This document shows positions 47,280 to 64,000 of a DNA stretch of 64,000 bases, piece by piece; position 1 is the stretch's first letter, and each line of letters starts with the position of its first letter. The notes under the pieces are model-generated. The model did not search any database and was not told the DNA's origin. It was given only the letters and a program-made list of their open reading frames with translations. Position numbers and translations under genes: made by a program. Source of the stretch: Leisingera aquaemixtae (GTDB lineage: Bacteria > Pseudomonadota > Alphaproteobacteria > Rhodobacterales > Rhodobacteraceae); NCBI RefSeq assembly GCF_019801145.1, contig NZ_JAHVJQ010000013.1:1-64000 (forward strand). Reading direction: 5' to 3'.

Positions 47280-47501
47280 GATTTAAACTAGTACATACTT
47301 TGCCAGCCTTTCCAATAGCCATTGCCCGCCGGATTTTCCCGGCTGGCCGATGCGCGGCAATCCGCCGCCGCGCGGCACCGGCGGAATGCCGCCGCTTTGC
47401 TGGTTCCATCCTGCAAATTTCCCGTGCTAGGCTTGCATCAAGCGCCGGATGCCTGCCGTGGTTCCGGGCCCGATATTTTAAGCCCGCTGCCGGGAGCAGA
47501 C

Positions 47502-49304
47502 ATGAATTTTTCCATCCGTCCAAACGGCTTGGCTTGTGCCATGGCCTTCAGCCTGATGGCGCTGCTGCCGCCTGCGGTATCCGCCGCCGAAGCGACGCTG
47601 CAGGCCCCCGGCGCGGACCCCACCCTTGCAGAGCGGCTGCGCGGTGCCTCTGCCTCGGTTGCCGCCAGCGGCGAGACCAATGTGCAAGAGTTGCTGGCCG
47701 CGGCGTTGTCGGATTACCGCACCCTAGTGCAGGTGCTGTATGACGCCGGGCATTTCTCGCCAGTGGTGAACATCCGCCTGGACGGGCAGGAAGCGGCGCA
47801 GATCCAGCCGCTGAACCCGCCGAAAAGCGTCCGCAAGGTGGAGATCACCGTAAAACCCGGCCCGCGGTTCGCCTTTGGCAAGGCTGAACTGGCGCCGTAT
47901 CCGCAAAACAGCGATGTGGAGATTCCTGAAGGCTTTGCCACCGGCAAACCGGCTGGCACCGGGGTGATCCGAGATGCCGCCATTGCCGGCGTGCGGGCCT
48001 GGCGCCGCAGCGGCCATGCCAAGGCCGAGGTGGCGGATCAGAACATCACCGCCAATCACCTGCAGGCGCGGCTGGACGCGGAACTGCGGCTGGCTCCGGG
48101 ACCGAAGCTGCGGTTCGGGCAGATGCGGATCACCGGCGACACCAGGGTGCGCAAGGGGGCCATCCGCCGCATTGCCGGCTTTCCGGAAGGCGAGGAATTC
48201 CACCCCGACCTGGTCTCCAAATCCGCCACCCGGCTGCGGCGCACCGGCACCTTTTCCTCTGTGGTGCTGCGCGAGGCGGAGCAGCCGAACCCGGACGGCA
48301 CCCTCGATTTCGTGGCGCAGTTCGAGGACCTGCCGCCGCGCCGCCTGACCTTCGGCGCCGAGATCAGCTCCTCCGACGGGCTGGAGCTGTCGGGCAGCTG
48401 GATGCACCGCAACCTGTTCGGCAACGCCGAGAAGCTGCGGATCGAGGCCCGGCTCAGCGGCATCGGCAGCAGCAATGACATCGACGGCCGCATCGCGGTG
48501 CGGCTGGACCGGCCCGCCAAGCTGGGGCCGGATGACAGCATCTTCTATCTGGCAGAGGCGGAGCGGCTGGACGAAGAGCATTACACCGCCACCCGGGTCT
48601 TTGGCGCCATCGGCGCGCGGCGGACGTTTTCGGACACCTTCTTTGTGGAGGCCGCGCTGGGAGTATCCTCGACCCTGGCAGAGGACGTGTTCGGCAAGCG
48701 CCGCTTCAAATACGTGGCTGGCAGGTTCCGCGCCGAGTACGACGCCCGCGACAGCCGCGTGAATCCCGCCAGCGGTTATTTCCTGCAAGGCAGCGCATCG
48801 CCCTTCATCGGATTTGACGGCAGCGAGTCCGGCCTGCAGCTAAAGGGTGACGGGCGCACCTATTACGGGCTGGGCGCCGATGACCGGATCGTGCTGGCCG
48901 GGCGGCTGCAGCTCGGCTCCGTGGTCGGGCCATCGCTCAGCGAAATCTCCCCGACGCTACTGTTCTTCTCCGGCGGCGCGGGCACCGTGCGCGGGCATGA
49001 ATACCAGTCGCTGGGCGTGCCCGCGGGCGGCGGCACCGCGGGCGGGCGCAGCTTTGCGGCCCTGTCCGCCGAGGTGCGGGGCAAGGTCACCGACAAGATC
49101 TCGCTGGTGGGCTTTTACGACCTTGGCTTTGTCGACGCGGACAGTTTCGTCTCCGGCTCCTCGTCGCGCCATGCCGGTGCCGGCATCGGCCTGCGCTATG
49201 ACGTGGCAGGCATCGGCCCGATCCGGCTCGACCTCGCCTACCCGGTGGACGGCGGCAGCGAGGACGGGCTGCAATTCTATATCGGGATAGGACAGGCGTT
49301 TTGA
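47502..49304 (+). CDS. tamA: TamA-like outer membrane assembly protein (BamA/Omp85 family)
   Basis: A 600-residue Omp85 protein. Residues 1-26 are a signal peptide. Three POTRA domains span about 70-300 (for example KVEITVKPGPRFAFGKAEL and RFGQMRITGDTRVRKGAIRR). The beta-barrel follows, with repeating aromatic strand ends and the conserved GGAGTVRGHEY loop, ending in QFYIGIGQAF. With TamB it inserts outer-membrane proteins or moves phospholipids. The ATG at 47502 has a GGGAG site. It overlaps tamB by 4 bases. Confidence 0.93.
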   Translation: MNFSIRPNGLACAMAFSLMALLPPAVSAAEATLQAPGADPTLAERLRGASASVAASGETNVQELLAAALSDYRTLVQVLYDAGHFSPVVNIRLDGQEAAQIQPLNPPKSVRKVEITVKPGPRFAFGKAELAPYPQNSDVEIPEGFATGKPAGTGVIRDAAIAGVRAWRRSGHAKAEVADQNITANHLQARLDAELRLAPGPKLRFGQMRITGDTRVRKGAIRRIAGFPEGEEFHPDLVSKSATRLRRTGTFSSVVLREAEQPNPDGTLDFVAQFEDLPPRRLTFGAEISSSDGLELSGSWMHRNLFGNAEKLRIEARLSGIGSSNDIDGRIAVRLDRPAKLGPDDSIFYLAEAERLDEEHYTATRVFGAIGARRTFSDTFFVEAALGVSSTLAEDVFGKRRFKYVAGRFRAEYDARDSRVNPASGYFLQGSASPFIGFDGSESGLQLKGDGRTYYGLGADDRIVLAGRLQLGSVVGPSLSEISPTLLFFSGGAGTVRGHEYQSLGVPAGGGTAGGRSFAALSAEVRGKVTDKISLVGFYDLGFVDADSFVSGSSSRHAGAGIGLRYDVAGIGPIRLDLAYPVDGGSEDGLQFYIGIGQAF

Positions 49305-52300
49305 GACAGCATCTTGCCTTTTTCCTAGCCGCTGGCCTGACGGCACTTCCAGCTGCGGCGCAAGAGACCGCCACGGAGGACGCCGGCGGGCTGCTGGTCG
49401 ATTTCCTGGAGGACACCCTGTCCGGCGACAGCCGCTATATCAGCGTGTCGGGGCTGGAGGGGGCGTTTTCCTCGCAAGCCAAGATCAAGAAGATCACCGT
49501 GGCCGACGAGGAAGGCATCTGGCTGACCGTCGAAGGCGCGGTGCTGGACTGGAACCGGCTGGAGCTGTTGCGCGGGCGGTTCTCCGTCAATGAGCTGTCG
49601 GCGGAGCGCATCGAAGTGGCACGCGCGCCGGAGCCGCTGCCGCCGGACCCGGAGCTGCCAGAGGCGGAGACCACACCCTTTGCCCTGCCTGAACTGCCGG
49701 TGGCCATCGAACTCGGCCAGATCAAGGCAGCCCGGATCGAGCTGGGCGAGGCGCTGGCCGGCACCGCGGCAAGCCTGCGGGTCGAGGGTTCGCTGAAACT
49801 GGCGGACGGTGCGCTGGACACAAAGCTGGAAGCCGCGCGGCTGGACAAGCCCGGCGACCACCTGCGGCTGGAGGCGGGCTATGCCAATGAAACCCAGCAG
49901 ATCACCCTCGACCTGTCGGCAGACGAAGCGCCAGGCGGGCTGATCTCCCGCGGCCTGGACCTGCCCGGCAACCCCGACCTGCAGCTGACCGCCAAGGGCA
50001 GCGGCCCGGTGACGGATTTCACCGCCGATATCACCTTCAGCACCAATGGCACCGAGCGGCTGGGCGGCCAGGTGGTGCTGGCGGCCCGGCCCCTGCCCCA
50101 GGACGCCGCGCTGGAGACGCCGCGCGACATCGGGTTTTCCGCCGACCTCGGCGGCAATATCGACGTGCTGCTGCCGCCGGTGCACCGGCCGTTCTTCGGC
50201 CCCGGCCTGCGGCTCAACGTGAAAGGGGTGCGGGAAGGCAGCGGCGCAATGACACTGGACACGCTGGTGCTGCACACCAACGCCCTGCGGATCACCGGCG
50301 CCGCGGCGCTAGATGCGGGCGGCAAGCTGGCTACCGCCAACCTGAAAACCGCAATCACCCCGCCCGCAGGCCAGGCCGCTGCCGCGCTGCCCTTTGGCGG
50401 CGGGCAGACCACCCTGGCCAAGGCGGACCTGCAGCTGCAGAAAACCCTTGAAGGCCGCTGGGTGCTGGACGGGGTTGTGAACCAGCTGAGCCATCCCGGC
50501 GCGCTGGTGGATACCGCCGGGATCTCCGGCCGCGGCACATTGGACCAGACCAGCGGCTTTAAGCTGGAAGGGCGGATCGCAGCAAGCCTCAGCGGTTTCC
50601 AGCCCCGTGATCCGGCGATGGCCAAGGCCACCGGCAACGAAATCCGCTTTGAAGGTACGCTCAGCACCGATGGGCCCGGCGCGCTGCACATCACGGACAT
50701 GGAGCTGCGCGGCAGCGATTACCAGGCCGCGGGCGATGTGGCCTTCGACGGGCTGGAAGAGGGGCTGAAAGTCACCGCAGACCTGACGGCGGGCGCTGCG
50801 GATCTGGGCCGGTTTTCCGATCTGGCGGGCCGTCCGCTGGGCGGCGCGGTGCAGGCCGCGGTCAAGGGATCTTTCACCCCACTGACCGGCGGGTTTGACA
50901 CTGATCTTTCGCTGCAGGCGCAGGATCTGTCGGCGGGCATTGCCCAGGCGGATGAGCTTTTGGCGGGCACAACCACGCTTGACCTCAAGGCCGCGCGGGA
51001 TGAAAACGGCATTGCCATCGACCGGTTTGCGCTGGCGGGCAGTGCGCTGGAGGCCGAGGCGGCCGGCACGCTCAGCAACCAGTCCGGGCAGATGGACATC
51101 ACTGCCCGGCTCACCCGGCTGGAGGTGCTGCTGCCGCAGGCGCCCGGCACGCTGGAGCTGGCCACCACCCTTGGCCGGGCCGGCGATACCTTCAGCGGCG
51201 TCGCGGAATTGAAGGGGCCGCACACCTCCAGCGCCAAGCTGGACGGGTCTGTCACGCTGGCAGGGGACGCCGACTTCACCTTTGCCGCCGCCTGGAATGA
51301 GCTGGAACGCTTCGTGCCGCAGCTGGCGGGCAGGCTGAGCGCCGAAGGCACGGCAGAGCGGCGCAACGGCGAGTGGCAGGTTGCCGGCACGGCCGCCGGC
51401 CCTGCCGGGATTGCGGTCGAGACCGAGGCCCGCTTTACCGAAAGCAACGGCAGCACCGATTTGCGCTTTGATGCGGTGATGGCAGAACTGCAGCAGCTGG
51501 TGCCCGACCTGCCCGGACGGCTGGCCGCCACCGGCACTGCCGCCCGGCGCGACGGGACCTGGACCGTGGACAGCACCGCCAGCGGCCCGGCGGGCATCGA
51601 CAGCCGCATCGAAGGCAGCTGGAACGAAGCCGAGGGCACCGCCGACGTGACCGCCAGGGGCACCCTGCGGCTGGAGGGGCTCAATCCCTTTCTCTCGCCC
51701 AACCTGATGCAGGGGCCCGCGAATTTCGACATGGCCTTGCGCGGGGTCCCGGCACTGGACGGGGTCAGCGGCACCATCTCGGTCCCCGGCGCCTCGCTGG
51801 CGATTCCGGCGGCCGCCCAGCGGGTGGATGACATCAACGCCACGGTTTCCATCGCCAGCTCCAGCGCCCAACTGCAGCTTTCCGCCCGCCCGCGCGACGG
51901 CGGCACGGTGCGGATCAGCGGCCCGGTGGGGCTGCTGCCGCCGTTCAACGGCAACCTGCAGATTGCCATCGGCGATGTGGTGGTCACCGACCACCTGTCC
52001 TACGAAACCCTGCTGAACGGCAGCCTGGCAATGTCCGGCGCCATGGCCGGCGACAAAAAGCTGGCCGGCCGGATCAATGTCGGTGAGACGAATATCAACC
52101 TGAACACAGCGGGCGGCTCGGTCTCTTCCGCACCGATCCCGCCGGTCCGCCACGCCGGCGCGCCGCGCGAGGTGCGCCAGACCCTGGCCCGTGCCGGGCT
52201 GACCGGCAACAACGGCGGCGGCGGCGGCGGCTCCGGCAGGACGGCGCTGGACATCCTGATCGACGCGCCGTCCAGGATCTTTGCCCGCGGCCGCGGCCTG

Positions 52301-52930
52301 CGCGCAGAGCTGGGCGGCCAGATCCGCGTGCGCGGGTCCACCGCGAGCCCCTCGCCCTCCGGCCAGATCAGCCTGATCCGCGGCACCTTCGACATCCTGG
52401 GCCGGCGGCTGGAGCTAGATGAGGGACGGATCACCCTTTTGGGCGACCTGAAACCCTATCTGGAGTTCAAATCCACTGCCGCCACCGGCCAGGGCACGGC
52501 GACGCTGGAAATTTCCGGCCGGGTCGACGCGCCGGAGATCAAGGTGACCTCGGACCCGCCGCGGCCCAGCGAGGAAGCCCTGGCGCTGCTGCTGTTCGGC
52601 GACAACATCGGCGACCTGTCGCCGCTGGCGCTGGCCCGGCTTGCAGGCTCGGCCCTGACCCTCAGCGGCCGCGGCGGCGGCGCCCAAAGCAAGGTGCGCC
52701 AGGCCACCGGCGCCGATACCGTCGATATCGGCACCGACAACCTGGGCACCGGGCAGCTGGGGCTGGGCGGTTATGTGGCGGAAAACGTCTACACCGATTT
52801 CAACGTCAACACCCAGGGCGACAGCGAGCTGAGCATCAACCTGGATATCACCAAGAGCCTGACGGTTCAGGGAACGGTGGACAGCGAGGGGGAAACCGGG
52901 CTGGGCCTGTTCTTCAAGCGCGATTACTGA
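49301..52930 (+). CDS. tamB: TamB-like envelope-spanning translocation protein
   Basis: A 1209-residue AsmA/TamB (DUF490) protein. The N-terminal helix (residues 1-20) is a signal-anchor. The body is a long series of beta-rich repeats, seen as recurring hydrophobic-alternating patterns, and the C-terminal DUF490 domain begins about residue 900 and ends in FFKRDY. It bridges inner and outer membranes with TamA. The start is TTG at 49301, which overlaps the tamA stop codon (TTGA), so translation is coupled. Confidence 0.92.
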   Translation: MRQHLAFFLAAGLTALPAAAQETATEDAGGLLVDFLEDTLSGDSRYISVSGLEGAFSSQAKIKKITVADEEGIWLTVEGAVLDWNRLELLRGRFSVNELSAERIEVARAPEPLPPDPELPEAETTPFALPELPVAIELGQIKAARIELGEALAGTAASLRVEGSLKLADGALDTKLEAARLDKPGDHLRLEAGYANETQQITLDLSADEAPGGLISRGLDLPGNPDLQLTAKGSGPVTDFTADITFSTNGTERLGGQVVLAARPLPQDAALETPRDIGFSADLGGNIDVLLPPVHRPFFGPGLRLNVKGVREGSGAMTLDTLVLHTNALRITGAAALDAGGKLATANLKTAITPPAGQAAAALPFGGGQTTLAKADLQLQKTLEGRWVLDGVVNQLSHPGALVDTAGISGRGTLDQTSGFKLEGRIAASLSGFQPRDPAMAKATGNEIRFEGTLSTDGPGALHITDMELRGSDYQAAGDVAFDGLEEGLKVTADLTAGAADLGRFSDLAGRPLGGAVQAAVKGSFTPLTGGFDTDLSLQAQDLSAGIAQADELLAGTTTLDLKAARDENGIAIDRFALAGSALEAEAAGTLSNQSGQMDITARLTRLEVLLPQAPGTLELATTLGRAGDTFSGVAELKGPHTSSAKLDGSVTLAGDADFTFAAAWNELERFVPQLAGRLSAEGTAERRNGEWQVAGTAAGPAGIAVETEARFTESNGSTDLRFDAVMAELQQLVPDLPGRLAATGTAARRDGTWTVDSTASGPAGIDSRIEGSWNEAEGTADVTARGTLRLEGLNPFLSPNLMQGPANFDMALRGVPALDGVSGTISVPGASLAIPAAAQRVDDINATVSIASSSAQLQLSARPRDGGTVRISGPVGLLPPFNGNLQIAIGDVVVTDHLSYETLLNGSLAMSGAMAGDKKLAGRINVGETNINLNTAGGSVSSAPIPPVRHAGAPREVRQTLARAGLTGNNGGGGGGSGRTALDILIDAPSRIFARGRGLRAELGGQIRVRGSTASPSPSGQISLIRGTFDILGRRLELDEGRITLLGDLKPYLEFKSTAATGQGTATLEISGRVDAPEIKVTSDPPRPSEEALALLLFGDNIGDLSPLALARLAGSALTLSGRGGGAQSKVRQATGADTVDIGTDNLGTGQLGLGGYVAENVYTDFNVNTQGDSELSINLDITKSLTVQGTVDSEGETGLGLFFKRDY

Positions 52931-53022: not shown

Positions 53023-54060
53023 GTGGGCAGATCAATCACCCGAAGGCTGGCAGACCGCGCCAGCCGCGCAGCACACCGCGCCAGATTCCGCGCCTCGCTG
53101 CGCCATCTGCACGGGCCTGCGCGCCGCTTTGCCGCGCCGGACCAGGTGGTGCTGATTGCCCTGGTGCGTGACGGCACCTATTACCTCGACGCGTTTTTCG
53201 ACCACTACCGGCGGCTGGGGGTCTCGGCCTTCGTGTTCTTCGACAACGGCTCTGCCGACGGCACAATCGAGCGCATCCGGCAGGAGCCGGGCACTGCGGT
53301 GCTGCAGTCCCCCCTGCCCTGGCTGGAGTTTGAGAACACCTTCCGCGCCTACGCCGCAGACCGTTACGGACAGGACCGCTGGTGCCTGTTTGCCGACATG
53401 GATGAGCTGTTTGATTTCGAAGGCAGCGAAACCGCCGGCCTGGCCGGGCTGACCCGCTACCTGACGCAGCAGGGCTATACTGCCTTGCAAGCCGAGATGC
53501 TGGAAATGTTCCCCAAGGGGCCGCTGTCCGCGGCTACCGGGCTTTCCTATGCCGAAGCGGTGCGCAGCTTCCGCTTTTCCGACATCAGCGCAGTGCGGGC
53601 GGCCGATTACACGTCTGAAGACACCGGCTTTGCCTATTACCTGCGCCAGAACAGCCTGCCGCCCGGCGGCGCGCAGATGCTGTTCGGCGGCGTGCGCGGC
53701 AAGGTGTTTGGCGAAAACTGCTGCCTCAGCAAGCACCCGCTGGTGTTCAACGGTCCGGGGGTGCAAGCGGCGGTGCATCCGCATGCCTCAGCCGGGGTGC
53801 GGGTCGCGGACATGGAAGGGCTGATCCGCCATTACAAATTCGCCGGCGACAGCCTGGCGCGGGATCTGCAGATCCAGGCGGAAGCGGTATCGGAGCACGG
53901 CGAGGACCGCCGGCGCAGCAACGCGATGCGGGCGCGGCCGGACCTCAGCCTGTGGTCCGAGGACGCTGTTGAAGATGCAGGTATGGCAGAGCTGCAGCAC
54001 CGGGGCTTTCTGCGCCCGTCGCCGCAGTACCGTGCCTATCTTGCCGGGGACGCCGCATGA
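53023..54060 (+). CDS. family-2-like glycosyltransferase
   Basis: A 345-residue protein of the Glyco_tranf_2_4 type. The GT-A fold begins at about residue 42 (VVLIALVRDGTYYLDAFFDH and FVFFDNGSADGTIERI), with the acidic metal site DMDELFDFEG. It has no transmembrane helix. Substrate unknown. The GTG start at 53023 has an AGGGGAA site. The stop overlaps the next glycosyltransferase start (ATGA). It follows tamB by 92 bases and probably belongs to the polysaccharide block. Confidence 0.82.
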   Translation: MGRSITRRLADRASRAAHRARFRASLRHLHGPARRFAAPDQVVLIALVRDGTYYLDAFFDHYRRLGVSAFVFFDNGSADGTIERIRQEPGTAVLQSPLPWLEFENTFRAYAADRYGQDRWCLFADMDELFDFEGSETAGLAGLTRYLTQQGYTALQAEMLEMFPKGPLSAATGLSYAEAVRSFRFSDISAVRAADYTSEDTGFAYYLRQNSLPPGGAQMLFGGVRGKVFGENCCLSKHPLVFNGPGVQAAVHPHASAGVRVADMEGLIRHYKFAGDSLARDLQIQAEAVSEHGEDRRRSNAMRARPDLSLWSEDAVEDAGMAELQHRGFLRPSPQYRAYLAGDAA

Positions 54061-55007
54061 GTGCCCCTCCCATCGCCGCCGTGGTCATCGGCCGCAACGA
54101 AGGGGAGCGGCTGATCCGCTGCCTGCGCTCCTTGCAAGGCCAGGTGCAGCAGCTGGTCTATGTCGACAGCGGGTCAAGCGACGGATCGGCAGCGGCGGCG
54201 CGGGATCTGGGCGCCACGGTGGTGAATTTGGACCTCAGCCAGCGGTTCACCGCCGCCCGCGCCCGCAACGCCGGGCTGGCTGTGCTGGAGAACGGGATCG
54301 AGTTTGTGCAATTCGTGGATGGCGACTGCGAGGTGGACCCGGACTGGATCGCCACCGCCGCGGATTTCATGCAGGCACATCCCAAGGCCGCGGTGGCCTG
54401 CGGGCGGCGGCGGGAGCGGTTTCCTGAGGTGTCGGTCTACAACCGGCTGTGCGATGCGGAATGGGACACGCCCGTTGGCGAGGCCAAGGCCTGCGGCGGT
54501 GACGCGCTGATGCGGGTGGTGGCGGTCTATACCGCTGGCGGCTACCGCGAGGGGCTGATCGCCGGAGAGGAGCCGGAACTGTGCCTGCGCCTGCGTCGAG
54601 CGGGCTGGCAGATCTGGCGGCTGGAGGCAGAGATGACCCTGCATGACGCGCAGATTCTGCGTTTCGGCCAATGGTGGAACCGCAGCCGCCGCGCAGGCCA
54701 TGCCTTTGCCGAAGGCGCGGCGCTGCATGGGGCGGGGGTGGAGCGCCACTGGGTAGCGGAGACCCGCCGCGCCCTGCTGTGGGGCGCCGCCCTGCCTGTC
54801 GCCATTGCGCTGGCAGCCCTGGCACATCCCTTGCTGATGCTCGCGTCGCTCATCTACCCGGCCCAGGTACTGCGGCTGTCCCGCCGCATGGGATTTGAAC
54901 GGGCGCTGTTTTCGGTGCTTGGGAAATTTGCCGAGGCCGCGGGCGCGCTGGAGTTTTACTGGCACCGCTGGCGCGGCAGCGCGCGCGGCATATTGGAATA
55001 CAAGTAG
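54057..55007 (+). CDS. family 2 glycosyltransferase
   Basis: A 316-residue GT2 enzyme. The nucleotide-sugar site is in IAAVVIGRNEGERLIRCL and QLVYVDSGSSDGSAAAARD; the metal-binding DxD is FVDGDCEVDPDW. One or two hydrophobic helices lie near 235-270 in the C-terminal part, so it may attach to the inner membrane. Sugar unknown. Its ATG overlaps the upstream glycosyltransferase stop. It ends 7 bases before the convergent WecG gene. Confidence 0.87.
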   Translation: MSAPPIAAVVIGRNEGERLIRCLRSLQGQVQQLVYVDSGSSDGSAAAARDLGATVVNLDLSQRFTAARARNAGLAVLENGIEFVQFVDGDCEVDPDWIATAADFMQAHPKAAVACGRRRERFPEVSVYNRLCDAEWDTPVGEAKACGGDALMRVVAVYTAGGYREGLIAGEEPELCLRLRRAGWQIWRLEAEMTLHDAQILRFGQWWNRSRRAGHAFAEGAALHGAGVERHWVAETRRALLWGAALPVAIALAALAHPLLMLASLIYPAQVLRLSRRMGFERALFSVLGKFAEAAGALEFYWHRWRGSARGILEYK

Positions 55008-55014
55008 CCCGCCG

Positions 55015-55767
55015 TCAGCGGTCCCGGATACGCCAGGCTGCGAGGGTATGCCCGGGCAGGATCGCTATACATTTCAAGTAGCGCGGCAGCAGACGGCCGG
55101 GACTGGACAGAGCCCGCCACAGCCATTCCATCGCAATGGCCCGGACCCAGGACGGGGCGCGCTTCTGGTGGCCGCCGAGAAAATCCAGCCCGGCCCCGAC
55201 AGAGGCAAAGCCGGCCGCAGGCGCCAGCTTGCGCCCGCGCTGGGCAAATTGCTCCTGCTTGGGGGCGCCCAGCGCCAGGAAACACAGGCAGGGGCCGGTT
55301 TCGTCCAGCCGGTGCAGGATCTGGTCCGCCTCTCCTCCTTCGGGGTCAAAGCGGCCCGAGGGGGCATGGATCCAGGCGATCTTCAAACCCGGCACCGCTG
55401 CTGTCAGAGCGGCCTCAGCATCCTTAAGCGCTTCCTCTGTGCTGCCCGCCAGCACCAACGGCACCCCGGCCTCAGCCGCTAGGCGGGACAGCGGCAGCAC
55501 CATGTCGGAGCCCGGCATCAGCTCCACCGGGCGGCGGGCAAGGCGTGACAGCCAAACAATAGGGCGCCCGTCCGCCACCACCAGGTCCTGCGCCTGATAG
55601 GCAGACAGGAACGCCGCCGACGCTTCCATCTTGACCAGGTGATCCAGGTTCAGCGTCGCCAGCGCAAAGCCCTGCCCCGCGCTGAAGCGGGCGCTGATTT
55701 CAGCCTCCAGCCGGGCGCGGGCGGGTGTGTTCACCGCAATCCGGCGGCCTTGGCATTCGAAATACAT
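55015..55767 (-). CDS. WecG/TagA/CpsF family glycosyltransferase
   Basis: A 250-residue GT26 enzyme. The hallmarks are NLDHLVKMEASAAFLSAY, LVVADGRPIVWLSRL, LALGAPKQEQFAQRG and the C-terminal KRAPSWVRAIAMEWLWRAL with PGRLLPRYLKC. Such enzymes transfer N-acetylmannosaminuronic acid or a similar sugar to a lipid carrier in early polysaccharide synthesis. I use the ATG at 55767 (MYFECQGRRIAVN); an upstream start adds an unmatched leader. It is convergent with the GT2 gene and divergent from the polymerase. Confidence 0.9.
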   Translation of the reverse strand: MYFECQGRRIAVNTPARARLEAEISARFSAGQGFALATLNLDHLVKMEASAAFLSAYQAQDLVVADGRPIVWLSRLARRPVELMPGSDMVLPLSRLAAEAGVPLVLAGSTEEALKDAEAALTAAVPGLKIAWIHAPSGRFDPEGGEADQILHRLDETGPCLCFLALGAPKQEQFAQRGRKLAPAAGFASVGAGLDFLGGHQKRAPSWVRAIAMEWLWRALSSPGRLLPRYLKCIAILPGHTLAAWRIRDR

Positions 55768-55959
55768 GTGGCTCCCCGGTTGCGTTCCGCCCCGTGATAC
55801 CGCCGCCGGTGCCGCCAGGCCAGCCCGCCGGACGCGGCGCCCCTGCTGGCGTGGCAAAGCTGCACACCGTTAACCCGTTGTTGCAAATCCGCGCGACAGC
55901 GCCGCGCGCAACAGGTAAAGTTTGACGCAAATACCGGGGAATTGAGGGAGCACGGGGCT

Positions 55960-57423
55960 TTGCCCAACGCTTTGGCCTATCTGATGCTGCTGGCCTGGCC
56001 GCTGGCCAGCCTGATCCTGTTCCGGCGCCTGCCGCTGGAGCGGGCGATCCTGTGGTGCATCATTGCGGGCTACCTGCTGCTGCCGCCGCTGGCCGAGTTC
56101 GACCTGCCGCTGGTGCCGGACATGGACAAGTTCGCGATCCCCTCGGTGATGGCCTTTGTGCTGTGTGCCTTCCTGCTGCGCAGGCCGGTGCCGCTGCTGC
56201 CGCGCCATCCCGCAGTGCGGGTGCTGGTGCTGTTGTTCGTGTTCGGGGTCATCCCCACCGTGCTGACCAATGGCGAGCCGATCCTGTTCCGCCAAATCGC
56301 CAATTCCGACCCGATCATCTTTCTGACCGATCAGCTGCCGGGGCTGCGCTGGCGCGACCTGGGCTCGGTGATCATCAACCAGGTGATCGTGCTGATCCCC
56401 TTCCTGCTGGCGCGCCGTTACCTGTCCACCCCCGAGGCCCAGCGCGAACTGCTGCTGGCGCTGATGATCGGCGCGCTGGCCTATACCGTCCCGTCGCTGA
56501 TCGAGATCCGCTTCAGCCCGCAGATCAATGTCTGGATCTACGGCTTTTTCCAGCATGATTTCAGCCAGATGATCCGCCAGGGCGGCTTCCGCCCCATCGT
56601 GTTCCTGCCGCATGCGCTGTGGCTGGCCTTTTTCATGATGTCGGCGCTGCTGGCAGCCACCGCGCTGGCCCGCACCGCCGCAGGCGGGGCGCGCATCCGG
56701 CTGGCGCTGGCCGCGGCCTACCTGTTTGCGGTGCTGGTGCTGTGCAAGAGCCTCGCCTCGCTGGCTTATGCGCTGGCCTTTGTGCCGGTGGTGGCGCTGG
56801 CGCCCGTGCGCTGGCAGCTGCGCACGGCCCTGCTGCTGGCACTGATCGCAGTGGTCTACCCGATGCTGCGCAACACCGGGCTGGTGCCGACAGAGGAGCT
56901 GGTGGCTCAGGCAAGCACCATCAGCGCCGAGCGGGCGCATTCGCTGAACTACCGCTTTGAGAACGAGGCGCAGCTGTTGGCCCGCGCTGCTGAAAAGCCC
57001 TGGTTCGGATGGGGCGGCTGGGGCCGCAACCTGGTGCGGCACGCGGAAACCGGGCAGATCCTGTCGATCCCGGACGGCCGCTGGATCATCGTCTTCGGCA
57101 CCTTCGGCTGGCTGGGCTATATCGCCGAGATGGGCCTTCTGGCGGCGCCGCTGGTGCTGCTGGCCTATGCTGCCGGCCGTGCGCCGCGCGGCAGCCTGTC
57201 GCCCTATGCCGCTCCGATTGCGCTGATCCTGGCCGCCACCATGATGGACATGCTGCTGAATGCCACTCTGATTCCAATCACCTGGATGTGCGCCGGATCG
57301 GTGCTGGGCTACGCCGAACGGCTGCTTTATCCGGACTTGTTCCGCGCAAAACCGGCACTATTTGGCGGGACGCAGGCGCTGATGCCTGACACCGCCGGGC
57401 CAGAGCGGCGCAGCATCTTGTGA
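55960..57423 (+). CDS. O-antigen/exopolysaccharide polymerase-like membrane protein
   Basis: A 487-residue membrane protein with about twelve hydrophobic helices. It has a large loop (about residues 315-360, with NYRFENEAQLLARAAEKPWFGWGG) that is the typical periplasmic loop of O-antigen polymerases/ligases (Wzy/WaaL-like). The TTG start at 55960 is favoured by GAGGGAG 9 bases upstream; a TTG at 55942 is an alternative. Probably polymerises or ligates the repeat units made by the neighbouring transferases. Substrate unknown. Confidence 0.75.
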   Translation: MPNALAYLMLLAWPLASLILFRRLPLERAILWCIIAGYLLLPPLAEFDLPLVPDMDKFAIPSVMAFVLCAFLLRRPVPLLPRHPAVRVLVLLFVFGVIPTVLTNGEPILFRQIANSDPIIFLTDQLPGLRWRDLGSVIINQVIVLIPFLLARRYLSTPEAQRELLLALMIGALAYTVPSLIEIRFSPQINVWIYGFFQHDFSQMIRQGGFRPIVFLPHALWLAFFMMSALLAATALARTAAGGARIRLALAAAYLFAVLVLCKSLASLAYALAFVPVVALAPVRWQLRTALLLALIAVVYPMLRNTGLVPTEELVAQASTISAERAHSLNYRFENEAQLLARAAEKPWFGWGGWGRNLVRHAETGQILSIPDGRWIIVFGTFGWLGYIAEMGLLAAPLVLLAYAAGRAPRGSLSPYAAPIALILAATMMDMLLNATLIPITWMCAGSVLGYAERLLYPDLFRAKPALFGGTQALMPDTAGPERRSIL

Positions 57424-57684
57424 TGCCGCAATCTTTCCGCTTTTCCGGCCGAAATTGACACAATGCGTCCTTAGGACAGCCGCATGGATTGACGAAAGTA
57501 AATTTGAGTTCACCCGGCCCCGCGGAACAGATGGGGATCCATGCCGCCAGGCCGGGCCAACCGCCGGGGAGAACCCTGGCAGCCGAAAATACACCTGTCC
57601 GGCAGGCCCTGCCAATTTCGCTAAGCGGACTGGCTGCGGCGTGCCGGGCTGTTTGCGAAAGGCCAGTGGGGTCAGATATTGACG
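57424..57684. other. 261-base region upstream of the polyketide synthase
   Basis: Probable promoter region. There are two TTGAC motifs (57447-57451 region and 57490-57500 region) but neither has a good -10 box at normal spacing. No other gene is supported here. Confidence 0.4.
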
Positions 57685-60600
57685 ATGCAGGATCGGACAT
57701 CCGCAGCGGGGGGCGCTGCCGCGAGCAAATCAGCCGGCGACATTGCAATTGTCGGGCTGTCGGTAACGGTTCCGGGCGCTGCTTCTGCCGAAGCGTTCTG
57801 GCAGAACCTGCGCGCAGGCATCGAATCCATCGAGGTTCTGGACCGCGAGGCGCTGCTGGCAAATGGCGAACGCGCCTCTGTGCTGGCCGACCCGAACTAT
57901 GTGCCCGCATCCGCCCGGCTGCAGGGATTTGACGTGTTTGATGCCGAGTTCTTCGGCTTCAGCCCCAAGGAAGCGGCGATCCTCGACCCACAGCACCGCA
58001 AGTTCCTGGAGGTTGCCTGGGGCGCGATGGAAAACGCAGGCCACCCGCCGGAAAGCATAAATGGCCCCATCGGCGTCTACGCGGGCTGCGGCATGGGCAG
58101 CTATTTCTACTTCAACATCTGTTCCAATCCTGCGCTGGTCGATGACGTGGGCATGTTCCTGCTGCGCCATACCGGCAACGACAAGGATTTCCTGTCGACC
58201 CGCGTCAGCCATGTGTTCGATCTGCATGGGCCGTCGGTCAACGTGCAGACCGCCTGCTCCACCTCGCTGGTGGCGGTCCATTACGCCTGTAGAGCCCTGC
58301 GCGAAGGCGAGTGCGATTTGGCGCTGGCGGGCGGTGTCACCATCGAGCTGCCGCAGGGGCGCGGCTACCTCTACAAGGAAAACGAGATCCTCTCCCCCGA
58401 CGGCCATTGCCACGCCTTCGACCATAGGGCGCAGGGCACTGTGTTTGGATCCGGCGCAGGCGCCGTGGCGCTCAGGCGGCTGGAGGATGCGATAGCCGAC
58501 GGCGACCACATCTGGGCCGTCATCAAGGGCTCTGCGATCAACAACGACGGCGCCGACAAGGCGGGCTATCTCGCTCCTTCCGTCGGCGGCCAGTCGGCAG
58601 CGGTGCAAAAGGCACTGGCGGCCGCAGGCACCCCGGCGGAGACCATCGACTATGTGGAATGCCACGGCACCGGCACCTATCTGGGCGACCCGATTGAGGT
58701 TTCCGCCCTGACCGATGCCTACCGCACCACCACGCAGGACACCGGGTTTTGCCGCATCGGTTCGGTCAAGAGCAACATCGGCCATCTGGACACCGCGGCC
58801 GGCGTTGCCAGCCTGACCAAGACCGCGCTGGCGCTGCACCACAAGGAAATCCCGCCCTCACTGGGGTTTGAGGCGCCGAACCCGGCGATTGACTTCGAAA
58901 CCTCGCCGTTCCGCGTGAACGCCGCCCTCACCCCGTGGACACCGCACAAGGGGCCGCGCCGTGCCGGCATCAACTCGCTGGGGGTCGGCGGCACCAATGC
59001 GCATGTGATCCTGGAAGAGGCCCCCGAACGGGCGCCGTCCGAGGAAAGCGATTTCCCGTTCCAGATCCTCTGCGTCTCAGGCCAGTCCAAGGCGGCGCTG
59101 GAGGCCAACAGCCAGGCCCTTGCGGACTATCTGAAAGCCAACCCCGAGGCCGATCTGGCCGACGTCGCTTACACCCTCAAAGAAGGCCGCCGCGGCTTTG
59201 CCAAGCGGCGGGTACTGGTGGCGGAGACAGCTGCCGAAGCCATTGACCTGATTGAAGAAAACGATCCCCGCAAGGTATTCACTCATGACCGCCTCGGCGG
59301 CAGCCCTGAGGTGGTGTTCATGTTCCCCGGCGGCGGCGCGCAATACGCGGGCATGGCGCGTGACCTGTATGAGACCGAGCCGGTCTTTGCCGAGTGGATG
59401 GACCGCGGGCTGGAGCACCTGCAAAAGAGCCTCGACTACGACATCCGCGCGATCTGGCTGCCGGAAGAGGGTGGAGACGACGCTGCCAATGCCAAGCTCC
59501 AGCAGCCCTCTGTGCAGCTGCCGCTGATCATGATCGTCGAATACGCGCTGGCGCAGCTGTGGATCAGCTGGGGCGTGAAACCCGCCGCGCTGGTCGGCCA
59601 CTCGATGGGCGAAAACACCGCCGCCTGCCTGGCCGGTGTTATCTCCTTTGAGGACTGCATCGATCTGGTCCTCTTGCGCGGGCGGCTGTTCGACACCGTG
59701 CCTGCGGGCGGCATGCTTTCGATTGCCCTGCCCCTGGCCGAGGTTGAGGCCATCATCGGTGAAGACCTGGACATCGCCAGCGTGAACGCGCCTGCGCTCA
59801 CCGCCGTCTCCGGCCCGCAAGAGGCGCTGGACCGCCTTTCCGCGGTCCTGGCCGCCCGCGAGGTCGAACACCAGCGCATTCAGATCGACATTGCCGCCCA
59901 TTCCCGAATGCTGGACGGCATCCTGCAGAAGTATGGCGATTTCATCCGCTCCCTGAAGCTGTCGGCCCCCAAACTGCCGGTGATCTCCAACCGCACCGGC
60001 ACGGCCTTGACCGCTGAACAGGCCACCGATGCCGAATACTGGGTCGGCCAGCTGCGCAACACCGTGCGCTTTGCCGATTGCATCGGCACCCTCGCCAAGA
60101 CCCCGGACCGGGTGTTCCTGGAGGTCGGCCCCGGCAAGGCACTGAGCGCGTTGGCGCAAATGTCGCCCGCGGTGAAGCCCGGCCAAGTGCTCAGCTCCCT
60201 GCGGCACCCGGATCAGCAGGTGATGGATGACAGCTACTTCTTCGGCGTCATAGGCCGGCTCTGGGCCTGCGGGGTGGAGGCTGACTGGGAACAGATCTGG
60301 GGCGAGGCGCGCCGCAACCGCTTGCCGCTGCCGGGCTACGCCTTTCAGCGCAGCCGCTATTTCATCGAGCCCGGCAAACCTGCTGCCGCGGAAGAGGCCG
60401 AGACCCCTGCCCGCCATGAGGACCTGAGCAACTGGGGCTACCGCCCCGCCTGGCGCCCGCGGCTGGCCGATTGTGCGCTGGACGTGACGCAAGAGCTGAA
60501 TCAGGAGCCGCATACCTGGCTGATCTTCGAGGATGACTGCGGCCGCGCCGCCCAAGTGGCCGAGCGCCTGGAGGCCGCGGGCCACAGCGTCGCGCGGGTC

Positions 60601-63600
60601 TGCGCAGGCGACACCTATGCTCAGCTTGCGCCCAACGCCTATGTGCTGCCGCCGGAACAGGGCCGCGCGGCCTATGGCGCGCTGCTGGCTGATCTGGCAG
60701 AGGCCGGGCTGCTGCCGGACCGCATCGCGCATTTCTGGCTGGTGACGGAACAGGAGAGCTTCCGCCCCGGCTCCTCCTTCTTTGACCGCAATCTGGAGAT
60801 GGGCTTCCATTCCCTGACCGCGCTGGCGCAGGAACTTGGCAATGCCGACCTGCCCGCTCCTGCGCATCTTACGGTCTTTACCACCGGCGCCGCGCAGGTG
60901 CGCGGCGAGGCGCTGCCCTACCCGGAAAAGGCCATGATCGCAGGCCCCCTGGGCGTCATCCCGCGGGAGCTGCCGGGGCTGACCTGCGCTGCCGTGGACA
61001 TCGAACTGCCGCAGGCGCCGCGCGGTCTCTTTGCCCGCCTCAATCCCGAGCAGGCCGATATCACCTGCCGCCTGCTGGAAGAGCTGATGGCCGATCCCGC
61101 CAGCACTTCAGCCGCCTGGCGCGGGGAGAAACGGTTCGAGCTCAGCTGGCGCCCGCAGCCGCTGCCTGAGCCGGAAACCCCGCCCTTCAAACAGGGCGGC
61201 CATTACATGATCACCGGCGGCTATGGCGGCATCGGCCTGACCATCGCGGGCCATCTGATGCGCTATTATGACGCCAGGGTGTCGCTGATCTCCCGCGGCG
61301 GCTTGCCGCCGCGCGCGGCCTGGGAGCGTTATCTGGCCAGCCACAGCCCGGCGAACCGCACCGCCCAGCGCATCCGCGCTGTCATGGCGCTGGAGGCGGA
61401 TGGCAAGGGCCAGGTGCTGCCGCTGGCTGCCGATGTCTGCAACAGCGGCGACTTGCGCAAGGCGCGCGCGCAGGCCGAGGACGCCTTCGGTCCCGTCACC
61501 GGCGTGATCCACGGCGCCGGTGTCATCAATGACGGCCCGCTGCTGGCCAAGGACGAGGACCAGATCGCCCAGGTCCTGGCACCCAAGGTCAGCGGCCTGC
61601 GCGCGCTCGACGCGGTGTTCCCCGACGGCAGCCTGGAACTGATGGTGCTGTTCTCCTCCTCCTCAACCGTGACCCGGCCCGCGGGCCAGGTGGATTACAT
61701 CGCCGCCAACGAATACCTCAATGCCTGGGCCAAGCACCGCGCGGGCGGCCGGACCCAGGTGATTGCCGTGGACTGGGGCGTCTGGGCGGACACCGGCATG
61801 GCCGCCGACGCCATGGCCAGCCGCAACGCAAACGCGGGTGCCAGCACGCCCGAGCCCTGCCCGCAGCCGCTGCTGCAGCAGCAGGGCTATGACGCGTCCG
61901 GCAACCGCATCTTCACCCCCCGTTTCAGCACCGCAGACTGGCTGCTGGATGAGCACCGGACCAAGGATGGCACCGCCCTGGTGCCCGGCACCGGCTATAT
62001 CGAGATGGCCGCCGAGGCGCTGGCGGCAACCGGCGCCGACGGCCCGTTCGAAATCCGCGGCCTCTATTTCCTGCGCCCTCTGATTGCGGACGAAAACAGC
62101 CCGCGCGATGCGCTGATTAAGCTCGAAGCTAATGAAAATGGTTATGAACTCTTTGTTTACTCGAAGTTTACAAATGGTTACCGTCTGAACTGTCAGGCTA
62201 TGCTGGCCTTTGCGGCGGCGGCAGAACGCCCCGTCGCGCTCAACCTCCAGAAGATTTTCACCCAATGCCCGGAGGAGCAGGTGCCTGAAGACGGGCGCCT
62301 GCGTTCCCCGCAGGAGGCGCATCTGAATTTCGGGCCGCGCTGGCAGGTGCTGGACCGCGCCGCGCTTGGCGATGGCGAGGGGGTGGCGTCGCTGTCGCTG
62401 CCAGAAGCTGCGGCGCAGGACGGCTGCCTGCTGCACCCCGGCCTGCTGGACCTGGCCACCGGCTGGGCCATGAAGCTGATCCCCGGATACGAGGGCAAGG
62501 CGCTTTGGGTGCCGGTGTCCTATGGCACCATCCGGGTATTTGCGCCGCTGACCCGATCCATCTTCAGCCATGTGCGCCTGTCCGGCACCCCGGACAGCGC
62601 CTCCGCGGCGTTCGACGTCACCCTGACGGACCCGGACGGTACCGTGCTGGTGGAGATCGAGGGCTTCCGGATGCAGCGCCTGGCCGGCGGGTTCGACGCC
62701 GCCGGGGAACCGGGCAAAGCGGACGCGACCGCGGCCCAGCTGGGCCTGGAGCCTGCCGCCGGCCCGCAGCCGCTGTCGCCGGAGGAACGCCGCCTGCAGC
62801 TGAACATCTCAAACGGCATCAAGGCCAGCGAGGGTGGCGCGGCGCTGGCCCGCGCCCTAGGGACCGGCCTGCCGCAGGTGGTGGTCTCCTCGCTCGACCT
62901 GCCCGCGCTGATCGCGCAGGCGGATCAAAGCGCACCTGCCCAGGCAGAGGCGCAGACGTTTGACCGGCCGCAGCTCGACACCGATTACGTGGCACCGCGC
63001 AACCCGGTGGAGGAACAGCTGGCCGCGCTGTTTGCCTCCCTCCTCGGTGTCCGCCAGGTGGGGATCGAGGACAGCTTCTTTGACCTCGGCGGCCATTCCC
63101 TGATTGCAGTGCGGCTGTTTGCCCAGGTGAAACGCGCCTTTGATGTGGAATTCCCGCTGTCGGTGCTGTTCGAGGCCCCCAGCGCCGCCGCACTGGCCGA
63201 ACGGATCATCGAACGCACCGGCGGCGGCGTTGCGGCAGAGCCGGGGGACACCCCGCAGACGGCGGAGGAACAGCCGAAATTCACCCACCTGGTGCAGCTG
63301 CACCCCGGCGACGGCACCGGACGGCGGCCCTTCTTCCTGGTTGCGGGCATGTTCGGCAACGTGCTGAACCTGCGGCACCTGGCGCTTTTGGTGGGCAAGG
63401 ACCGCCCGGTTTATGGCCTGCAGGCCAAGGGGCTGGTGGGCGGCGATGCGCCGCACGGCCGCATCAGCGATGCCGCCCGCAGCTGCCTGAGCGAAATCCG
63501 CCAGGTCCAGCCCGACGGCCCCTATCTGCTTGGCGGTTTCTCCGGCGGCGGCATCACTGCCTATGAGATGGCGCAACAGCTGAAGGACCAGGGCCAGGAC

Positions 63601-64000
63601 ACCGCGGCGCTGATCCTGCTGGACACCCCGCTGCCGGTGCGCCCGGCCCTGAACCGGCAGGACAAGGCGCTGATCAAGCTGGCAGAGCTGCGCTGCAAAG
63701 GGATAGGCTACCTTGGCGAATGGGCCAGGAACCGCATTGCCTGGGAGCTCGGGAAACGCCGCGCCAAACCCGCGGAAACCGGCGCCCTGCCGGAGTTCAA
63801 CAACCGCAAGATCGAACTGGCCTTCCGCGCCGCGGTCGCGGCCTATGCCCTTAGACCCTGGGACGGCCCGCTGACCCTGTTCCGCCCGCCGCTGGACCGC
63901 AAATGGCAGGTGAGCGGCGACAATTGGGTCAGCGGCGAACGCGAGTATGTGTTCCACGACAACGACTGGACCCGATGGGCGCCCGCCGTCGAGGTGGAAG
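57685..64000 (+). CDS. type I polyketide synthase, KS-AT-KR-DH-ACP-TE (cut by window end)
   Basis: At least 2105 residues and no stop in the window. KS (about 20-445): C191 in QTACSTSL, H327 in ECHGTGT, H367 in KSNIGHLD. AT (about 540-850): FPGGGAQ, S640 in VGHSMGE, H739 in AAHSRML. KR (about 880-1380, structural then catalytic half): GGYGGIG near 1177 and the DYIAANEYL tyrosine. DH (about 1400-1700): H1424 with HxxxGxxxxPG and D1589. ACP: S1805 in GGHSLIAV. TE: S1953 in GFSGGG. No ER or MT domain. I use the ATG at 57685; a TTG two codons earlier also fits. It should make a reduced, dehydrated polyketide released by TE; product unknown. Confidence 0.93.
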   Translation, partial: MQDRTSAAGGAAASKSAGDIAIVGLSVTVPGAASAEAFWQNLRAGIESIEVLDREALLANGERASVLADPNYVPASARLQGFDVFDAEFFGFSPKEAAILDPQHRKFLEVAWGAMENAGHPPESINGPIGVYAGCGMGSYFYFNICSNPALVDDVGMFLLRHTGNDKDFLSTRVSHVFDLHGPSVNVQTACSTSLVAVHYACRALREGECDLALAGGVTIELPQGRGYLYKENEILSPDGHCHAFDHRAQGTVFGSGAGAVALRRLEDAIADGDHIWAVIKGSAINNDGADKAGYLAPSVGGQSAAVQKALAAAGTPAETIDYVECHGTGTYLGDPIEVSALTDAYRTTTQDTGFCRIGSVKSNIGHLDTAAGVASLTKTALALHHKEIPPSLGFEAPNPAIDFETSPFRVNAALTPWTPHKGPRRAGINSLGVGGTNAHVILEEAPERAPSEESDFPFQILCVSGQSKAALEANSQALADYLKANPEADLADVAYTLKEGRRGFAKRRVLVAETAAEAIDLIEENDPRKVFTHDRLGGSPEVVFMFPGGGAQYAGMARDLYETEPVFAEWMDRGLEHLQKSLDYDIRAIWLPEEGGDDAANAKLQQPSVQLPLIMIVEYALAQLWISWGVKPAALVGHSMGENTAACLAGVISFEDCIDLVLLRGRLFDTVPAGGMLSIALPLAEVEAIIGEDLDIASVNAPALTAVSGPQEALDRLSAVLAAREVEHQRIQIDIAAHSRMLDGILQKYGDFIRSLKLSAPKLPVISNRTGTALTAEQATDAEYWVGQLRNTVRFADCIGTLAKTPDRVFLEVGPGKALSALAQMSPAVKPGQVLSSLRHPDQQVMDDSYFFGVIGRLWACGVEADWEQIWGEARRNRLPLPGYAFQRSRYFIEPGKPAAAEEAETPARHEDLSNWGYRPAWRPRLADCALDVTQELNQEPHTWLIFEDDCGRAAQVAERLEAAGHSVARVCAGDTYAQLAPNAYVLPPEQGRAAYGALLADLAEAGLLPDRIAHFWLVTEQESFRPGSSFFDRNLEMGFHSLTALAQELGNADLPAPAHLTVFTTGAAQVRGEALPYPEKAMIAGPLGVIPRELPGLTCAAVDIELPQAPRGLFARLNPEQADITCRLLEELMADPASTSAAWRGEKRFELSWRPQPLPEPETPPFKQGGHYMITGGYGGIGLTIAGHLMRYYDARVSLISRGGLPPRAAWERYLASHSPANRTAQRIRAVMALEADGKGQVLPLAADVCNSGDLRKARAQAEDAFGPVTGVIHGAGVINDGPLLAKDEDQIAQVLAPKVSGLRALDAVFPDGSLELMVLFSSSSTVTRPAGQVDYIAANEYLNAWAKHRAGGRTQVIAVDWGVWADTGMAADAMASRNANAGASTPEPCPQPLLQQQGYDASGNRIFTPRFSTADWLLDEHRTKDGTALVPGTGYIEMAAEALAATGADGPFEIRGLYFLRPLIADENSPRDALIKLEANENGYELFVYSKFTNGYRLNCQAMLAFAAAAERPVALNLQKIFTQCPEEQVPEDGRLRSPQEAHLNFGPRWQVLDRAALGDGEGVASLSLPEAAAQDGCLLHPGLLDLATGWAMKLIPGYEGKALWVPVSYGTIRVFAPLTRSIFSHVRLSGTPDSASAAFDVTLTDPDGTVLVEIEGFRMQRLAGGFDAAGEPGKADATAAQLGLEPAAGPQPLSPEERRLQLNISNGIKASEGGAALARALGTGLPQVVVSSLDLPALIAQADQSAPAQAEAQTFDRPQLDTDYVAPRNPVEEQLAALFASLLGVRQVGIEDSFFDLGGHSLIAVRLFAQVKRAFDVEFPLSVLFEAPSAAALAERIIERTGGGVAAEPGDTPQTAEEQPKFTHLVQLHPGDGTGRRPFFLVAGMFGNVLNLRHLALLVGKDRPVYGLQAKGLVGGDAPHGRISDAARSCLSEIRQVQPDGPYLLGGFSGGGITAYEMAQQLKDQGQDTAALILLDTPLPVRPALNRQDKALIKLAELRCKGIGYLGEWARNRIAWELGKRRAKPAETGALPEFNNRKIELAFRAAVAAYALRPWDGPLTLFRPPLDRKWQVSGDNWVSGEREYVFHDNDWTRWAPAVEVE

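Follow-up and report, generated by a model that had tools for sequence, protein, structure and literature searches.

A polyketide synthase gene paired with a formyltransferase-bearing NRPS gene in an exopolysaccharide locus of Leisingera aquaemixtae and other Rhodobacteraceae

The subject of this study is a gene for a type I polyketide synthase (PKS) in Leisingera aquaemixtae, with domains in the order ketosynthase (KS), acyltransferase (AT), ketoreductase (KR), dehydratase (DH), acyl carrier protein (ACP), and thioesterase (TE), as judged by Pfam and by alignment. It lies on the + strand at 57685..64000 of the window, by which is meant positions 1-64000 of C13, a contig 112042 bases long from a genome of 4.88 Mb, window and contig sharing one numbering. 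The gene has a regular partner, encoding a protein of the nonribosomal peptide synthetase (NRPS) kind in which a formyltransferase is followed by an adenylation (A) domain with an embedded monooxygenase (MOX) and by a carrier domain. In about one-third of the sampled genera the two genes occur together, nearly always among the genes for a surface polysaccharide; this suggests that their product is a small group by which the polysaccharide is decorated. We put a probability of roughly 0.55 on the reading that the two proteins form one short hybrid assembly line and that its product decorates an exopolysaccharide of the Wzx/Wzy type. The product would presumably be attached covalently, and the exact acyl group proposed below is a guess from domain logic.

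The interpretation in the first-pass annotation is partly supported by the observations below and gains in precision: the PKS does not stand alone but belongs to a paired formyl-glycine/polyketide line, regularly present in one exopolysaccharide locus. To judge by titles and opening abstracts, in a coverage that takes in few subscription journals, no paper was found that assigns this pair to a polysaccharide locus.

The pair and its polysaccharide locus

The constancy of the pair was assessed in a sample in which each genus of Rhodobacteraceae had about one genome, 295 in all. At 1e-100 the PKS found matches in 130 of them, some through other types of PKS, while the NRPS was matched in 109 and an 834-amino-acid (aa) protein encoded further downstream was matched at 1e-20 in 113. 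The count of pairs is based on 95 PKS copies judged near full length, with short NRPS fragments left out. These copies come from 94 genomes, the window's own and 93 others in which the orthologues are 51-80% identical. All 94 have a match to the NRPS, a few as fragments at contig ends. In 90 of the 95 copies, the NRPS gene follows directly downstream, on the strand of the PKS and after a gap of 28-1954 bases (median about 1056), and in the remaining five the two genes are on separate contigs (four cases) or the NRPS gene is upstream (one case). So constant a partner, usually accompanied by a phosphopantetheinyl transferase (PPTase), rules out the PKS acting by itself as a full account, and the proposal of the first-pass annotation that a single module acts alone or iteratively finds no support as a description of the whole system.

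Outside the family, matches are scattered. Among 385 genomes from the class, 7 match, 2 of them outside Rhodobacteraceae, and among 299 from the phylum, 11 match, including 4 from other families, one of which lacks the formyltransferase part. Copies on plasmids that span 80% or more of the query were found in 16 records, including Shinella, Aminobacter, Rhizobium, Neorhizobium, and Methylobacterium. In Methylobacterium the NRPS gene is ahead of the PKS gene, and on a plasmid of Aliiroseovarius the NRPS gene is followed by one protein of the form KS-AT-KR-DH-ACP-C-A-PCP-TE (C, condensation domain; PCP, peptidyl carrier protein). Distance matrices calculated from the 45 of 79 loci that have all eight families gave a correlation of 0.89 between PKS and NRPS, of 0.72-0.87 between the PKS and other genes of the locus, and of 0.92 between the NRPS and the Wzc-like gene. 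Since the NRPS correlates better with the Wzc-like gene, these values show no more than that the genes of the locus evolve together.

The setting of the pair was compared with other parts of the same genomes in 40 genera, picked by hand from the 94 with regard to the length of their contigs and to a spread of identities. Each cluster contributed two flanks of 20 kb (two of them shorter, at contig ends), each of the 40 controls one stretch of 20 kb, and 38 of the controls came from 38 of the test genomes, the other two from the window's own genome. The seeds of the iterated profiles were themselves drawn from loci of like kind. Core families of polysaccharide synthesis were found near the pair and almost never in the controls: Wzx in 33 clusters, WecG in 36, the sugar transferase in 32, and Wzy in 36, with no control matching any of the four, and Wzc in 38 clusters and one control. 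All five families were present in 28 of the clusters; of the rest, 6 had four families, 1 had three, 4 had two, and 1 had none, so that 39 clusters have at least two; 39 of the controls had none and one had a single family. Counted per single flank, the core families match in 32-38 of 80. The accompanying families behave similarly, with PPTase at 36 clusters to no controls, a 312-aa family at 32 to 1, the 834-aa family at 34 to 0, GT2 and GT4 glycosyltransferases at 37 to 1 and 37 to 3, and a tyrosine-kinase seed at 38 to 2. The PKS and NRPS profiles matched in the flanks of 1 and 5 of the clusters, respectively, and in 1 and 4 of the controls. Flippase, polymerase, chain-length protein, initiating transferase, and glycosyltransferases are thus all represented, as expected of a Wzx/Wzy-dependent locus.

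Plasmids tell much the same story. In five annotated loci (Parasedimentitalea, Shinella, Aminobacter, Ruegeria, and Paracoccus) the pair is always amid glycosyltransferases, with a flippase in four, a sugar-phosphate transferase in four, and an export protein in two. A second, unannotated Shinella plasmid has Wzx, WecG, sugar transferase, Wzc, and the export protein OPX by profile, and on a second Ruegeria plasmid the pair is amid glycosyl-, sugar-, and acyltransferases.

Among the 79 loci from named genomes, the PKS was within the fetched stretch in 76 and a homologue of the Wzy-like polymerase in 65. Over the whole sample, this homologue is present in 112 of the 295 genomes: 93 of the 94 with a full PKS, 101 of the 109 with the NRPS, and 11 of the 186 without it. 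The 834-aa family shows a like distribution (104 of the 109 NRPS-bearing genomes versus 9 of the 186 others). In six genomes (G072, G088, G279, G250, G243, and G153), the Wzy homologue is on the same contig as the PKS but 56-421 kb away, so close linkage by itself lacks the power to explain the co-occurrence. A chance neighbourhood, which the first-pass annotation had offered as one of two possibilities, is ruled out by the comparison of flanks with controls taken together with the co-occurrence of the Wzy homologue. The link between the assembly line and a Wzx/Wzy polysaccharide locus is strong; of the other possibility raised by that annotation, a polyketide decorating a surface glycan, this link is the part that stood, while the decoration itself is an inference.

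The two assembly-line proteins

The PKS is a genuine and intact gene. As the first-pass annotation had it, the start is an ATG at 57685 (the frame is open from a TTG at 57679, from which residues such as TE H2113 are numbered); the stop is at 64137 on C13, and the end of the window cuts off the final 137 bases. Six domains exceed the curated Pfam cut-offs, in the order KS (21-397 aa), AT (546-823), KR (1174-1371), DH (1397-1669), ACP (1779-1843), and TE (from 1910). Their active sites were inspected in an alignment of 101 rows, made up of 98 homologues and three rows (QUERY, L012, and L009) of the protein encoded in the window itself. Invariant in all rows are C193, H329, and H369 of the KS (57739..58869; PF00109/PF02801), where the motif DPQHR is likewise universal; the Ser and Arg of the AT (59314..60147; PF00698), which has GHSMGE, the Arg, and AAHS in place of HAFH; the Ser, Tyr, and Asn of the KR (61198..61791; PF08659); H1426 and D1591 of the DH (61867..62685; PF21089 and PF14765); S1807 of the ACP (63013..63207; PF00550); and S1955 and D1982 of the TE (PF00975), of which the window holds 63406..64000. 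All of these features are on the + strand, as is a structural region prefixed to the KR (60430..60852; NF047870 84.9 bits, PF21394 32.1 bits). The catalytic residues had been said to be all visible, and so they are apart from the TE His, H2113, which falls at about base 64015, beyond the window, and is present in the full gene. It occurs in 100 of the 101 rows, and the one gap fits L009, a copy cut at base 63999. The motif of the DH had been given as H-x3-G-x4-P and is rather H-x4-G-x4-P, seen in 98 rows; one row has x3 and two fall outside the pattern.

With KS, AT, ACP, and reducing domains on one chain and active sites intact, the protein is a type I cis-AT reducing PKS. The usual order in a cis-AT module is DH before KR, though this does not define the class. 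The placement of KR ahead of DH, the terminal TE, and the lack of an enoylreductase (ER), all noted earlier, are borne out by Pfam and by the alignment. The KR-DH order recurs in L122 and in the Aliiroseovarius locus (L258). No family match to an ER of the PKS kind was found in the PKS at E 0.001, nor was the pattern GGVGxA found at residues 900-1750 in any of the 101 rows. The next KS matches in the window's genome are in frames of 395-472 aa, leaving this as the one large PKS frame found by the KS family. Scanning for promoters 5' of the PKS turned up none on the + strand. The C terminus of the PKS (L010:80-6538) finishes in -AAE in 16 of 17 printed ends, possibly a docking motif.

The partner (1521 aa; 65156-69721, +) has a formyltransferase, then a poorly conserved stretch in which no significant family match was found, then an A domain split by a luciferase-like monooxygenase (TIGR04020, 471 bits at 764-1114, between A4 at 722-730 and A5 at 1195-1204), and finally a carrier domain. 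In an alignment of 83 rows, two of them the window's own protein, the N87, H89, and D125 of the formyltransferase and the Ser of the carrier are invariant. N, H, and D are the catalytic residues of Formyl_trans_N. The HHxxxDG condensation motif was not found ahead of the A domain in any of the 83 rows, nor was there a match to a condensation family in the NRPS; because there is no such motif before the A domain, the protein looks like a loading module. Lack of the motif and the gene order in Aliiroseovarius and Methylobacterium together favour the direction NRPS to PKS to TE. It should be borne in mind that 68 loci of the PKS alignment and 75 of the NRPS alignment come from the best 80 matches of one search and are biased to close relatives; among those matches, the NRPS gene has its closest named relatives mainly in species of Leisingera, at up to 89% identity. 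The NRPS (L010:7557-12122) has, after a variable linker, a tail resembling MSKRRAMRANR, the strict pattern being present in 72 of the 83 rows. This too may be a docking motif.

The best sequence match of the NRPS protein in the PDB is LgrA, of linear gramicidin synthesis, which begins with a formyltransferase followed by A and carrier domains and is not known to have an embedded monooxygenase. The likeness lies in the formyltransferase loading module; LgrA, unlike the protein considered here, continues into further peptide modules.

The substrate can be judged from the pocket of the A domain, whose positions were mapped by motif anchors with GrsA numbering. It reads DILQ(L/M)GMIWK, with L or M at the fifth position in 80 of the 83 rows, I at the eighth in 81, and no variation at the remaining eight positions; in a wider set, 13 rows give DILQ[LMFA]GM[IV]WK. 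Glycine A domains with an embedded monooxygenase occur in the myxothiazol, melithiazol, and MOX-bearing corallorazine-like clusters. Four monooxygenase-bearing glycine A domains are reported to have the identical code DILQLGMIWK (PMC12283262), and a closely similar code, DILQVGLIWK, has been predicted to specify glycine (PMC4169593). The monooxygenase of myxothiazol and melithiazol is also inserted between a4 and a5 (PMC10204066), so that the present protein combines the pocket code and the insertion site of the MtaG/MelG kind. It differs in that their A(MOX) domain ends the chain, whereas here it follows a formyltransferase and there is no condensation domain. Monooxygenase domains embedded in glycine A domains alpha-hydroxylate glycine (PMC10204066, PMC11342130). 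That the A domain loads glycine is, as a prediction from sequence, well supported, and both N-formylation and alpha-hydroxylation of the glycine are likely.

A possible route and its alternatives

These considerations permit a route to be sketched. The PPTase would arm the carrier domains of both NRPS and PKS, and the A domain would load glycine onto its carrier, where the formyltransferase would cap it to give N-formylglycine and the embedded monooxygenase would hydroxylate the alpha carbon. The NRPS carrier would then pass the unit to the KS, the AT would supply one malonyl unit, and the KR and DH would convert the product to a C4 enoyl (4-formamidocrotonyl-like) thioester. The TE might place the acyl group on the lipid-linked repeat unit, at one of its sugars, or release the acid for such a transfer, after which Wzx would flip the repeat unit, Wzy would polymerise it, and proteins of the SGNH and SGNH-glycosidase kinds might edit the acylated polymer. 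In this full form, a dedicated NRPS/PKS line leading from N-formyl-(alpha-hydroxy)glycine to acyl decoration of the repeat unit, in about one-third of Rhodobacteraceae genera and scattered Hyphomicrobiales, the proposal is tentative and somewhat doubtful.

If it is true, collapse of a 4-formamido-4-hydroxycrotonyl unit could yield a reactive aldehyde able to crosslink the matrix. Assembly lines of this sort are usually regarded as producing antibiotics, toxins, or siderophores; some of the hybrid NRPS-T1PKS clusters of roseobacters that have no product assigned (e.g., candidate cases in PMC11595833) would instead be polysaccharide genes. A new class of glycan modification would thereby become testable in ordinary laboratory strains, and the pair would provide a sequence marker for one exopolysaccharide across the family.

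A number of observations weigh against decoration of a polysaccharide by the pair. The pair does occur elsewhere: in Aliiroseovarius (L258, 17989-31728) it is between nos genes and the exosortase gene XrtD, with none of ten locus families (polysaccharide, PPTase, glycosyltransferase, SGNH, GH) found in 40 kb and one GT2 annotated at the far end, and in genome G217 the five core families are all missing from the 20 kb to either side and there is no Wzy homologue. An OPX export seed made from two Rhizobiales sequences matched one of the 40 clusters and no control, and a Rhizobiales O-antigen ligase seed matched none of either (OPX/Wza is annotated in L122 and L123 and was found in L257). The eleven NRPS-lacking genomes carry Wzy homologues of 217-315 bits, a range shared by some NRPS-bearing genomes, and the Fisher values of the co-occurrence, about 1e-55 for the Wzy homologue and 1e-61 for the 834-aa family, take no account of shared ancestry and overstate independence. 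Gene order varies as well, for in Shinella and Aminobacter the PKS and NRPS genes are divergent, and in 5 of the 90 downstream cases the gap is below 300 bases, with no room for a GT2 gene. Chemically, the TE is equally able to release a free acid, myxothiazol-type systems cleave the hydroxylated glycine, which would destroy a formylglycine starter, and in a wider set of 13 sequences the N/H/D of the formyltransferase is kept in 12, with a distant homologue (L253) having F in place of the His.

Perhaps, then, the pair makes a small diffusible metabolite (a signal, an antibiotic, or a metal binder) and shares the locus because both serve life on surfaces. Its TE would in principle yield a free product, the Aliiroseovarius copy, with its extra C-A-PCP-TE, lies outside any recognisable polysaccharide locus, and such roseobacter genes are treated as putative secondary metabolism (PMC9769649, PMC4062626). 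Among those in PMC4062626 are Inhi_1972 and Inhi_1974 of Phaeobacter inhibens, a PKS and an NRPS whose tags are two numbers apart, as expected for PKS-GT-NRPS (GT, glycosyltransferase); going by the tags, they are probably the same pair, though assigned there to secondary metabolism. Searching the literature for Phaeobacter locus tags returned nothing beyond the genome paper, in a coverage mostly outside subscription journals. A diffusible product is nevertheless unlikely, as genes for glycosyltransferase, SGNH-like, and glycosidase-like proteins overlap those of the assembly line, and the Wzy homologue tracks the pair even at distances of at least 56 kb in six genomes. Also, no dedicated small-molecule exporter appeared among the 25 families listed, out of 66, for 104 neighbouring open reading frames (ORFs) in nine genomes, a scan that took in 104 of 155 picked ORFs and 9 of 12 genomes and left out very large and some small ORFs.

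A mono-modular PKS inside a locus for polysaccharide synthesis and export is also the arrangement of RkpA and WcbR, type I PKSs encoded amid genes for capsular polysaccharide synthesis and export (PMC3908369), and one might suppose that the present enzyme likewise iterates, to make a lipid carrier or anchor of the polysaccharide. This we consider improbable. Without an ER, the PKS would not make a saturated chain, and the glycine-type NRPS partner is present in all 94 genomes. The KS motif is DPQHR in every row of the alignment, as opposed to the DPQQR that RkpA and WcbR keep (PMC3908369), and on this account membership of the RkpA group was dropped. Other features found here that would probably set the enzyme apart from RkpA and WcbR are KR before DH, no ER, a terminal TE, and the constant formyltransferase-A(MOX)-carrier partner, usually with a PPTase. 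RkpA and WcbR are accompanied by genes of the rkpG/rkpH type. A comparably small chance attaches to the idea that the monooxygenase cleaves glycine as in myxothiazol, leaving glyoxylyl on the carrier while formamide departs, so that the PKS would start from glyoxylate or the NRPS would just release an amide. The pocket letters and the insertion site do match the cleaving class, but nothing upstream is there to be released, since the protein has only a formyl cap and neither a condensation family match nor the motif, and alpha-hydroxyglycine survives in solanimycin B (PMC10204066).

Genes around the pair

Upstream of the PKS, the first-pass annotation had named a Wzy-like polymerase, a CpsF-type transferase, and two glycosyltransferases, and a corresponding match was found for all four. 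They are a glycosyltransferase of family Glyco_tranf_2_4 (53023..54060, +; 64.1 bits) and a GT2 (54057..55007, +; 59.9 bits), both of the GT2 type, a WecG/TagA/CpsF glycosyltransferase (55015..55857, -; 148 bits), and the polymerase (55942..57423, +), whose match to Wzy_C is weak (18.8 bits, below the cut-off of 31.7). The search had been pointed past base 64000 for a PPTase, an NRPS, or a flippase, and all three are encoded there. Between PKS and NRPS is a GT2 gene (64134-65159, +), and after the NRPS come a PPTase of the Sfp/EntD type (69718-70407, +; 85.5 and 52.6 bits), the SGNH-like protein of 312 aa (70404-71342, +), the SGNH/glycosidase-like protein of 834 aa (71339-73843, +), a second GT2 (73840-74676, +; 69.1 bits), a GT4 (74814-75935, -; 131.7 bits), a Wzx-type flippase (76242-77630, +; 143 bits), and a Wzz/Wzc-like gene (77795-79159, -) with a weak match of 17.4 bits, below cut-off. 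Six stop/start overlaps of 4 bases (ATGA/GTGA) link the genes for PKS, GT, NRPS, PPTase, SGNH, SGNH-GH, and GT, provided that the overlapping starts are the true ones (alternative start codons exist for some of the genes).

Pfam gave nothing significant for the 312-aa and 834-aa proteins, and their folds were therefore predicted. The model of an orthologue of the 312-aa protein (pLDDT 92.6) has a DUF4886 protein as its top Foldseek match (E 1.4e-5). A Ras-like GTPase takes second rank (E 1.5e-3), so only the DUF4886 match is firm; GDSL hydrolases, carbohydrate esterases, and PatB rank lower, at E above 0.001 and with unrelated folds among them. Across 27 sequences of the family, G48-H49-S50, D238, and H241 do not vary. 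The N-terminal half of the 834-aa protein has an SGNH-like predicted fold and the C-terminal half weakly matches barrels of GH44 and GH10 (E about 1e-3). N554-E555 and E750 are the same in all 30 sequences compared and are the putative acid/base and nucleophile of clan GH-A. SGNH-like neighbours would fit acyl-group chemistry. The two adjacent proteins at L010:12805-16244 both carry an SGNH-like domain, the second fused to the glycosidase-like half.

Some loci in other genomes have features of their own. That of Paracoccus marcusii (L125:674-4552) has an extra C-A-PCP-TE NRPS amid polysaccharide genes. On a Ruegeria plasmid (L259:22662-23448) the NRPS is followed by a short frame with a weak PPTase match and then a transposase gene, so that the PPTase looks truncated. 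Directly upstream of the locus in the window are Omp85/TamA-like and TamB genes (47322-52930), and in Aliiroseovarius L258, genes of the BamA/TamA family and TamB are likewise 10-15 kb from the NRPS.

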